The notes beneath the pieces were generated by a model, which made no database searches, was not told the origin of the DNA, and saw only the letters and a program-made list of their open reading frames with translations. This document shows, one piece after another, positions 52,953 through 56,365 of a stretch of 64,000 nt of DNA. How positions within the stretch are numbered: position 1 is the first letter of the stretch; every line of letters begins with the position of its first letter. The translations under genes and the position numbers were made by a program. The DNA comes from Pseudomonadota bacterium (GTDB lineage: Bacteria > Pseudomonadota > Gammaproteobacteria > Steroidobacterales > Woeseiaceae): the NCBI GenBank assembly GCA_022573655.1, contig JACZTO010000004.1:1-64000 (forward strand), given 5' to 3'.

Positions 52953-53037
52953 GATCAAACGCGCTGAGCCGCGAGCCGGGCAAAATGCGTATCATGACCT
53001 TGTCACGAGCCCGTTCACCACTAGACTCGGGATCACG

Positions 53038-53589
53038 ATGTCGACGTCGAATCACCCCACATTCGAAAAGATCCTACGGCCACACATGGATCGGCTGTAT
53101 CGGCTCGCCTGGCGGCTGACAGGCCGCAAGGCCGAGGCCGAAGACCTGTTCCAGGAGCTGCTGATCAGGGCATACGGCAAGCTCGACGATCTGGTGAATA
53201 TCGACGCGCCGGGATCGTGGTTGTCGCGCGTGATGTACAACCTGTTCATCGACGAACAGCGGCGTTTCGCGCGCCGGCGCATGCACACGGTGGAAGAGGG
53301 CGAGCTGTCGGGTGACGGGCTGGCCGGCCTGCCGGGCGCGGACGACCCGGCCCGCGACCATGAGCAATGGCAGCGATTTGAGCGGCTAGCCGCCGCTTTA
53401 TCGCAGCTCAGCGACGACCATCGCGTCATCGTCCTTCTGCATGACACGGAAGGCTATAAACTCGATGAAATTCATGTGCTTATGGATATTCCGGTCGGCA
53501 CGGTCAAGTCCCGCCTGCACCGCGCCCGGGCCCGTCTGCGGGAAATTCTCGATAAGGACGGAACCTTTTTCGAACAGGGAGCGTGTTAG
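53038..53589 (+). CDS. ECF-family RNA polymerase sigma factor
   Basis: RPHMDRLYRLAWRLTGRKAEAEDLFQELLIRAY; LSDDHRVIVLLHDTEGYKLDEIHVLMDIPVGTVKSRLHRARARLREIL. Confidence 0.95.
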   Translation: MSTSNHPTFEKILRPHMDRLYRLAWRLTGRKAEAEDLFQELLIRAYGKLDDLVNIDAPGSWLSRVMYNLFIDEQRRFARRRMHTVEEGELSGDGLAGLPGADDPARDHEQWQRFERLAAALSQLSDDHRVIVLLHDTEGYKLDEIHVLMDIPVGTVKSRLHRARARLREILDKDGTFFEQGAC

Positions 53590-53594
53590 AGATT

Positions 53595-54116
53595 ATGCAG
53601 GACGATTCTGAAATCACGGCACTGTTAAAGGATTACCCGATGCCAGCAGCAAACGCAGCCTATTTCGACCAGGCGCTTGTACGTGCGACACACGAGGGCT
53701 CGCGTCGCCAACGCAATCGCTGGGTCATGACCGGCTTCGGTTCTGCCATCGCTGCGGGACTCGCGCTCTGGCTGATCGGTGGTTTTTTCCTTACAGCGCC
53801 GAACCTGCCGGAGACTGACACACCTGGCGTTCCCGGCATTACGATGACGCTGGCCGAACCGCAGACAGTGAATTTCGTTTTTGCCTCCAACACGCCGCTG
53901 GTCGGCGCAACCCTGACAATAATGCTGCCGGAAGGCGTCGAACTCGTCGGTTTTCCGGGTCAACGTGAGATCTCGTGGCAGACCAGTCTCACTGCCGGCA
54001 GAAATCTATTGCCGCTCAGACTTATTGCCCTGTCACCCATGGGTGGCGAGGTAATGGCAACCCTCGAACACATGGATCGTGCTCGCACTTTCAGGGTGCG
54101 GGTAGACGTCATCTAA
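53595..54116 (+). CDS. Putative anti-sigma / single-TM membrane protein
   Basis: Immediately downstream of ECF sigma gene; short cytoplasmic N-terminus, one TM (GFGSAIAAGLALWLIGGFF), periplasmic domain. Confidence 0.65.
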   Translation: MQDDSEITALLKDYPMPAANAAYFDQALVRATHEGSRRQRNRWVMTGFGSAIAAGLALWLIGGFFLTAPNLPETDTPGVPGITMTLAEPQTVNFVFASNTPLVGATLTIMLPEGVELVGFPGQREISWQTSLTAGRNLLPLRLIALSPMGGEVMATLEHMDRARTFRVRVDVI

Positions 54117-54128
54117 AGGAGTAGGACG

Positions 54129-54596
54129 ATGAAACAACTGACTGTATTTTTTGCAATCCTGGCTTTGACCTTTGTTGCATTCCTCCCGGCCGCCGCGCAT
54201 GCCGACGCCACAAATGCGAGTGACGCGCTGGACGACCTCGATGTCACGATGGTGGTCCTGGACAATGTCGGCGCGCTCAGTGCCGAGATCTCAAAAATGG
54301 ACGGACCCGATCACAATGCTGGCGACGATCACGACGCGGATGACGATGAGCGCGACGAGTCCGAGCAGGAGCGTGACGACCACGATGACATGCACCACGA
54401 GAATGAGTCTGACCGCGAGCATGACTTCGAGGACGCAGACCATCGTGACGACTTCGACCACGATGACATTCTTGAAGAAGACGAACTCGACGACGAGGAC
54501 GACTTCGAAGACGGCGAGGATGTCGACACGGACGAGTTCCACGAAGACGACGAACCTCACGACGGCGAGGGCGCACACGACGAAGTCGTCGACTAG
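54129..54596 (+). CDS. Highly acidic Asp/Glu/His-rich exported protein
   Basis: Signal peptide MKQLTVFFAILALTFVAFLPAAAHA; of the 98 residues from DGPDHN to the C-terminus, 66 are D, E or H (hand count). Confidence 0.8.
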   Translation: MKQLTVFFAILALTFVAFLPAAAHADATNASDALDDLDVTMVVLDNVGALSAEISKMDGPDHNAGDDHDADDDERDESEQERDDHDDMHHENESDREHDFEDADHRDDFDHDDILEEDELDDEDDFEDGEDVDTDEFHEDDEPHDGEGAHDEVVD

Positions 54597-54641
54597 TCAC
54601 CTCGGCAACCACTGATTGAGCAATCTCACGGCCAAATGCTG

Positions 54642-54677
54642 AAAAACCCCCCGTTTGTACGCATTCGGGGGGTTTTT
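54642..54677 (+). terminator. Rho-independent terminator after acidic protein gene
   Basis: AAAAACCCCCCG-TTTGTACGCATT-CGGGGGGTTTTT. Confidence 0.93.
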
Positions 54678-54757
54678 CCTGCACTACGTCATAGTTTTGA
54701 CGCCGCCTTTGCCGTTAACCTTTGCTATCTGACATAACGTGGAATTTCGCCAGTCCA

Positions 54758-56365
54758 ATGTTCAAGAGGATCTCCCTTACTGCTTCATTGCTGCTGTTGG
54801 TCTGTATTGGCCTCCTCGCACCGTTGCAAAGCGCCCACGCACTGTCAGCGCGGCAGTACTTCGCGGAGGGCAATCGCCTGTTCCGGGACGATCTCTACTG
54901 GGCGGCATTGCTGCGTTACCGGCAGGCAGCCGAAGCTGGCATGGATACCCCGTTGTTGCATTACAACTCCGGCATCGCGAATTTCCGCGCGAACCAACAC
55001 ATCCGCGCCCGTGAAGCGTTTCTGATCTCCCTGGAAGACCCGTCGCTACGCATTCCCGCGCACTACAATCTTGGACTCAATGCGTATGCGATGGGAGATT
55101 CCGACGCAGCGCTACGCTGGTTTCGTCTCGCGCGCGACCAGAACGTGCGGCAGAAGATTCACAACTATGCCGTCATTGCGATCTCACGGATTCAGGCCGA
55201 GCAGGACAGACCTTACCGTCTGAATGCTCGCGCACCGCACCGCGAAGCACAGCGGGAATTTACATCCCTGCAGTTACGCGCACGCGTTGGTTTCGGCAGC
55301 GACGACAATGTATTTCGCTCACCGGATCAGCCTTACATCGATTTTTCCGACCCAACCCTGCCGCTGGTGACGCCGGAGCCTAAGTCGGGCGTATTCATGC
55401 CACTGAGTCTGAGCGCCAAGTACCTGGTCAACAGCCTCAAGTTCGAAGGCTTTTACACCGCCTACCGACTCGCCGGACGTTACTACCAGGACAAAGACCT
55501 GGAGAACGGCAATGAATATCTACATGAGGTCAGCTTTGGCAACGAGTTTCGCCGCAGGGAGGGCGCGCGCGAACGTGAAGTCTACAGTGCGTTCAAAATC
55601 GCACAGCATGACGAGAATTACTACGATCCCGACAACGGCAATTCTCGAAGCATTGGTGGCATCAGTATAGACGAGCGTATGAATTACATTCGCTACGGCC
55701 CGGAGCTGATTCTCAGGCAGTCGCACGAACACCTGGCAATCGGCGCGATAGTCAAAGGTCAGTTGTGGAATTACGAAGATACGCTCGTAGTTCCCGAGTA
55801 TGACCACGAGTATTTTTTGGTGAGCCTCTTCGGGCAATATAAATTTGCGCCGTCGTCCCTGCTGCGTATCACTGTGGAGGGCTACAGCCGCCGCTTCGGC
55901 GACCGGCCCGCGTACGATCTCGACGGCCAACAGCGGATCGGCAACCCCACAATTCGCTACGATTACCTGTCGCTGACACTAAACGTCCGGCAGCGAATTA
56001 TCGACGGTTTGTGGTTCGGCGTTAGCGCCAAGCGAACCGAGCGCACTGATAAATACGTTGCGTACAACGATTACACGCGCGACAGCTATGGCGTAGAGTT
56101 GCACTGGTCTGCCGGAGCCCGCTTTGACCTGGTGGCAAACGGTGTCTATGAGCTATACAACTTCCCGAATGCGTTCGCATTCCACAATCCGGTCGCCGGC
56201 CGCAAGACGCAGGAAAGCGCAAGAATCAATATCATCGGCACTTTCAGGATGACGCAAAGTCTGAGCCTCGTCGCCGCAGCACATTATAAAGAAACGGTAT
56301 CGAACGACACCCGCATTCAGTACGAACGCAACCAGTTCTTGCTCGGAGTACGCTGGCAATGGTAG
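54758..56365 (+). CDS. TPR-containing protein with C-terminal outer-membrane beta-barrel-like region
   Basis: Signal peptide, TPR-like repeats (ALSARQYFAEGNRLFRDDLYWAALLRYRQAAEAG), then alternating amphipathic strands ending in aromatic residue (FLLGVRWQW). Confidence 0.8.
   Translation: MFKRISLTASLLLLVCIGLLAPLQSAHALSARQYFAEGNRLFRDDLYWAALLRYRQAAEAGMDTPLLHYNSGIANFRANQHIRAREAFLISLEDPSLRIPAHYNLGLNAYAMGDSDAALRWFRLARDQNVRQKIHNYAVIAISRIQAEQDRPYRLNARAPHREAQREFTSLQLRARVGFGSDDNVFRSPDQPYIDFSDPTLPLVTPEPKSGVFMPLSLSAKYLVNSLKFEGFYTAYRLAGRYYQDKDLENGNEYLHEVSFGNEFRRREGAREREVYSAFKIAQHDENYYDPDNGNSRSIGGISIDERMNYIRYGPELILRQSHEHLAIGAIVKGQLWNYEDTLVVPEYDHEYFLVSLFGQYKFAPSSLLRITVEGYSRRFGDRPAYDLDGQQRIGNPTIRYDYLSLTLNVRQRIIDGLWFGVSAKRTERTDKYVAYNDYTRDSYGVELHWSAGARFDLVANGVYELYNFPNAFAFHNPVAGRKTQESARINIIGTFRMTQSLSLVAAAHYKETVSNDTRIQYERNQFLLGVRWQW

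Follow-up and report, generated by a model that had tools for sequence, protein, structure and literature searches.

Gene organization of the locus

The window, i.e. the whole 64-kb stretch of DNA that we analysed, carries at 53038-56365 four genes that all lie on the + strand. A sequence-only reading of this segment had listed an extracytoplasmic function (ECF) sigma factor, a protein with one transmembrane (TM) helix encoded 5 nt later, an acidic exported protein, a terminator and a TPR-barrel protein, and each of these was confirmed at the positions collected in Table 1. The sigma gene ends with its stop codon at 53589 and the anti-sigma gene starts with the ATG at 53595. For the TPR-barrel gene, the ATG at 54758 is a better start than the TTG at 54722 and is most likely the one used. 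Profile searches, proposed earlier as a check on all four products, assigned Pfam domains to the sigma factor and TPR matches to the barrel protein; the anti-sigma factor and the exported protein had no Pfam match.

Table 1. Positions of the genes and predicted control elements in the window
Feature	Coordinates	Strand	Basis
Putative sigma70-like promoter of the sigma gene, CTTGTCA-N16-TAGACT	52999..53027	+	Match by eye, aligned with the pair conserved in orthologs
ECF sigma factor, 183 aa	53038..53589	+	PF04542 and PF08281 above cut-off
Predicted ECF-type promoter GGAACC-N16-CGTGTTA, 3' end of the sigma gene	53560..53588	+	Locus counts against control windows
Putative membrane anti-sigma factor, 173 aa, one TM, Ig/MG-like periplasmic domain	53595..54116	+	AF2, Foldseek, zf-HC2 in relatives
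Small exported protein: signal peptide, core DLDVTMVVLD...ISKM, acidic low-complexity tail	54129..54596	+	Orthologs
Intrinsic terminator between the exported-protein and TPR-barrel genes	54641..54678	+	Hairpin followed by T-run
Conserved leader/promoter region of the TPR-barrel gene, ACGTCATAGTTTT...TAACCT...CTGACATAACG	54680..54739	+	Alignment of 27 sequences
TPR and 16-strand outer-membrane beta-barrel protein, 535 aa, signal peptide	54758..56365	+	AF2, Foldseek, TPR matches

Conservation of the gene set

Using the anti-sigma factor as the probe, we found matches in 52 of 99 genomes of the genus and order, and in 43 of 370 genomes of the class Gammaproteobacteria, distributed over 35 genera. 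The Woeseiaceae genome from which the window derives has a single copy. In Woeseiaceae the full set sits between SURF1-like/cyoE and uvrD-trkA-trkH; other copies are found elsewhere in the same genomes and in other families. The order sigma, anti-sigma, TPR-barrel on one strand is kept in 91/98 related loci from about 35 gammaproteobacterial genera. The set is syntenic in relatives and in unrelated contexts, and the absence of synteny that the sequence-only reading had named as refuting its module is not seen. Outside the cyoE-uvrD context, 53 of 57 loci retain this same-strand order with different flanks, and a chance neighbourhood was rejected on this ground. Among the exceptions are L046 and L143, which end at or near contig ends, L155, with its barrel gene on the opposite strand, and L140, in which no barrel was detected. 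The sigma gene adjoins the anti-sigma gene in every locus bearing the latter, the loci having been found via the anti-sigma search. Clustering of the flanking proteins of 54 non-cyoE loci yielded no further gene common to most loci.

Evolutionary distances of the sigma and anti-sigma factors are correlated (rho 0.61), as are those of the barrel with each of the two (rho 0.38-0.40); all values exceed every permutation, and part of each reflects shared species history. Given this conservation, that the four genes form one genetic unit is strongly supported at the sequence level. In a 398-genome sample of the phylum, full-length anti-sigma matches were confined to the window's own genome and three genomes of one gammaproteobacterial genus, the remaining matches covering the zinc-finger part only; an occurrence of the module outside Gammaproteobacteria was hence rejected for this sample. 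Searching PLSDB with the anti-sigma factor of L047 gave no plasmid-borne match. No name or description of this gene set was found in the open-access literature.

The sigma factor and its putative anti-sigma factor

The sigma protein contains Sigma70_r2 and Sigma70_r4_2, and its 183 residues comprise only the sigma2 and sigma4 domains with a short linker, as in ECF sigma factors. Among NCBIfam models the ECF superfamily model alone reaches its cut-off, and no named sigma equivalog does. Upstream of the sigma gene, a sigma70-like pair CTTGTGA-N16/17-TACACT is conserved in many cyoE-locus orthologs.

The AF2 model of the adjoining protein (mean pLDDT 80) displays one long membrane-crossing helix and a seven-strand periplasmic sandwich, for which Foldseek returned weak immunoglobulin/macroglobulin-like matches. 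A periplasmic motif, LPxxVELxGxPGQRxxxW...G.N.L.LPL, is kept family-wide. At the N-terminus, zf-HC2 is above cut-off in the relatives L040, L041, L047 and L066, and Hx3Cx2C is present in 61 of 92 family members. Because relatives keep this zinc-finger domain, the assignment of the window protein as a putative anti-sigma factor by ancestry is supported. The window protein itself and most of its clade have neither the Hx3Cx2C motif nor the zf-HC2 domain by which class I (ASDI/ZAS) zinc anti-sigma factors are recognized; the motif is missing mainly in the Woeseiaceae cyoE-locus clade and in L055, and is retained in L080 at the cyoE locus. At its N-terminus (53595-53700), the protein of the window clade lacks the zinc-finger part of about 45 residues that relatives have. 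Class I anti-sigma factors without the zinc motif exist, and zinc and non-zinc members are mixed within anti-sigma groups (PMC7406223); we thus read the absence in the window clade as a secondary loss. The family would then offer a clean case of a zinc motif lost while the protein is kept in the same operon.

A predicted ECF-type promoter at the end of the sigma gene

Where the sigma gene ends and the anti-sigma gene is about to begin, the sequence GGAACC-TTTTTCGAACAGGGAG-CGTGTTA (53560-53588) straddles the sigma stop; it was absent from the sequence-only reading. It has the form of a typical ECF promoter, with AAC at -35 and CGT at -10 (PMC8103513). The pattern G[GC]AAC[CT]-N14-18-CGT lies within -75/+40 of the sigma stop in 65 of 94 loci; among control windows of comparable size the rate is 1.1%. 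Relative to the sigma gene, 46 loci have the match in frame 0, 16 in frame 2 and 3 in frame 1, and in L119, L128, L130 and L148 it lies past the sigma stop codon. Occurrence in three frames and beyond the stop indicates that DNA rather than protein is conserved, and the motif as a by-product of protein conservation was rejected on these grounds.

The near-full consensus has a single match in the 2.27-Mb genome of the window, at this very site, and 31 matches in 41 genus genomes, 26 of them at the sigma/anti-sigma site; a reversed-pattern control gave zero matches in both sets. In related Woeseiaceae paralogs (L051, L052, L054, L055, L060-L062), the promoter is located between the anti-sigma and third genes, with none at the sigma end. 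An ECF-type promoter is also found upstream of the sigma gene in 26/94 loci. We infer that the sigma factor reads the promoter in its own gene. The predicted transcription start would fall nearly on the anti-sigma ATG, so the transcript may mainly serve the exported protein.

The TPR-barrel and exported proteins

The barrel protein was modelled by AF2 from 17 sequences with a mean pLDDT of 83. In this model, seven helices, corresponding to about three TPRs, follow the signal peptide and precede the 16 strands; the model is that of the window protein, and distant copies are shorter, at about 430-460 residues. The best PDB fold matches in Foldseek are BcsC, at the top, porins, FadL, AlgE and PgaA, all at about 10% identity, and the TPR matches are accompanied by sub-threshold matches to BBP2_2 and EpsL. 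These features are what one would expect if the protein were an exopolysaccharide exporter of the BcsC/PgaA/AlgK-AlgE type, with the small protein as an accessory or charged matrix partner and the sigma factor switching matrix export. We consider that unlikely: no synthase or glycosyltransferase family recurs in the flanks of 54 non-cyoE loci or in the cyoE-uvrD context, and the TPR region is short. The likeness to BcsC and PgaA concerns the architecture only, the identity to them being about 9%.

The arrangement of a TPR domain in the periplasm ahead of an outer-membrane barrel, with a small exported protein encoded alongside, also recalls the Type XI secretion/Slam systems (T11SS). However, T11SS proteins are characterized by DUF560, 14 strands and a TbpBBD cargo (PMC8406197), whereas the window barrel is predicted to have 16 strands and the third protein consists of a short core and a low-complexity tail instead of a C-terminal 8-strand TbpBBD. 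DUF560 had no match in 17 members of the family, and one relative gave a sub-threshold TPR_Slam match. Membership in Slam/T11SS was rejected on the missing DUF560 and the strand number.

At two loci, L228 (G019:C5) and L229 (G008:C24), the sigma and anti-sigma genes are gone, and the acidic protein, the leader and the barrel remain between cyoE and uvrD. L229 keeps a fragment resembling the anti-sigma sandwich; at L228, unrelated XRE-cupin-like and glyoxalase-like genes take the place of the pair. Through these losses a regulatory pair can be told apart from an effector pair, and survival of the latter shows that the regulation is dispensable; the losses also argue that the exported protein and the barrel work together. 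The same loci weigh against a sensing arm in the style of cell-surface signalling, in which the barrel would detect an outer-membrane condition and the exported protein would relay it to the Ig-like domain of the anti-sigma factor. The constant linkage of an anti-sigma factor with a periplasmic sandwich to an exported peptide and an outer-membrane protein fits such a relay, as does the short conserved core, which resembles a docking motif, but the effector pair of L228 and L229 must have a role of its own, and neither Pfam nor AF2 revealed a TonB-type plug or signalling domain in the barrel protein. We therefore give this relay little probability.

In the exported protein of the window, a signal peptide is present and D+E make up 56% of the tail. 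Its cyoE-locus orthologs share the signal peptide, a core around DLDVTMxVLDD...IxEMRGP and an acidic tail of variable length. In distant loci the core takes the form [IV]T[MI]xV...IxLP, and the tails are DE-rich, RE-repeat, Gln/Pro-rich or basic. Tail composition across the family ranges from 74% D+E to 36% K+R, as approximate statistics, since the automatic pick took part of the anti-sigma factor in L043, L045, L048, L066 and others. This variation with a kept core indicates that acidity is not the conserved feature; what is conserved is a signal peptide, a core and a hydrophilic low-complexity tail. His content is likewise not conserved, and the earlier description is corrected here in that neither property is a family feature. 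The earlier idea, that the acidic protein binds cations or metals in the periplasm and the sigma factor responds to metal, is weakened to a very doubtful one: in most orthologs of the window clade D+E exceed half of the tail, which agrees with it, but the tails of L155 and L121 are Arg/Lys-rich, others are Gln/Pro-rich, and no transporter or metal gene recurs in the flanks of 54 non-cyoE loci. A raw correlation between the charges of the third protein and the barrel (rho -0.64, 43 non-cyoE loci) was not upheld by independent contrasts (r -0.25, p 0.14), with a larger value in the sigma control, and charge complementarity was dropped.

The two effector genes are separated by the terminator, a strong hairpin that almost every one of 27 cyoE-locus orthologs keeps, although the stem differs in sequence. 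In the alignment of the 27 sequences, a block ACGTCATAGTTTT...GTAATCTT...CTGACATAACG is conserved right after it and before the barrel gene, and the 13-mer core of this leader lies upstream of the barrel gene in most genomes where it was found. With a conserved terminator and its own leader, the barrel gene in the window clade is probably transcribed from a promoter of its own, and transcripts begun at the sigma promoter would reach it in part at best. That the four genes are merely adjacent between cyoE and uvrD in one family, without forming a functional unit, is hardly credible: synteny there could be inherited and the barrel gene has this separate control, but the set persists with other flanks in the 53 loci elsewhere.

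A putative circuit and its output

With the gene set, its synteny, the conservation of the promoter, the ancestry of the anti-sigma factor and a separable effector pair all evident from the sequences, the predicted sigma-controlled circuit is strongly supported. We favour, with a probability of roughly 55%, a self-regulated envelope module that has the exported protein and the TPR-barrel as its output. In this model, the membrane anti-sigma factor would hold the ECF sigma factor inactive until its periplasmic Ig-like domain senses a signal. The released sigma factor would then transcribe the anti-sigma gene, yielding a negative feedback, and the same promoter embedded in the sigma gene would also drive the exported charged protein. 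In the sister groups, a promoter just before the exported-protein gene would cover the TPR-barrel too. The exported protein may be recognized through its short N-terminal core and taken up by the barrel protein at its periplasmic TPR face, to be exported or displayed across the outer membrane.

Such export or display is the most economical function for the pair, and we advance it tentatively. A role of the barrel in export or assembly had been suggested before and is plausible; the exported protein as its cargo is a conjecture. The self-contained envelope module proposed at the same time gains from the synteny and from the sigma-type promoter ahead of the anti-sigma and acidic-protein genes, but in the window clade the barrel gene, behind the terminator and with its own leader, may be expressed independently of the sigma factor. 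Possible, though rather doubtful, is the boldest version of the favoured module: an undescribed export or display system for a disordered, highly charged cargo with an N-terminal core of about 25 residues, employing a TPR-barrel outside the T11SS and polysaccharide-export families, with the sigma/anti-sigma pair monitoring the export line as a checkpoint, switched via the promoter in the sigma gene.

The closest regulatory parallel is sigH-rshA of C. glutamicum, in which a sigma-dependent promoter of the anti-sigma gene was located experimentally within the sigma coding region and the sigma gene has housekeeping promoters (PMC3489674). Both traits recur here as predictions from sequence, with a sigma70-like promoter for the sigma gene. 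However, sigH-rshA, an actinobacterial system for heat and disulphide stress, includes neither an exported protein nor an outer-membrane barrel, and its internal promoter is reported to drive rshA only (PMC3489674). An ECF sigma factor with a one-TM anti-sigma factor, a GGAAC-type promoter and an envelope output are reminiscent of RpoE-RseA. Unlike that system, the present module has no RseB/RseC-type genes next door, its predicted periplasmic domain is an Ig/MG-like sandwich, it is linked to an exported charged protein and a TPR-barrel, and the whole promoter consensus occurs once in its own genome. The module is probably an unnamed self-regulated envelope system.

ECF sigma factors of obscure output are common, and this one comes with fixed partners and a predicted promoter. 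Natural variants, namely sigma-less loci, moved promoters and zinc-less anti-sigma factors, make the function directly testable. If the barrel moves the charged protein, it would represent one more TPR-barrel export route.

A gene for a DUF4382-type lipoprotein is included in the retrieved flanks of 15 loci, none of which belongs to the cyoE context (among them L155, L200, L201, L061, L062, L136, L148, L057, L144, L060, L051, L054, L151 and L055). It is often divergent from the sigma gene and has its own sigma-type promoter in at least three (L155, L200/L201); in G023 and G037, a distant DUF4382 gene carries the full promoter consensus. The lipoprotein is a candidate regulon member and not a constant part of the module. 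Separately, L163 and L185, in G028 and G014, have the full sigma-promoter consensus upstream of small genes that resemble each other and are MarR/winged-helix-like.
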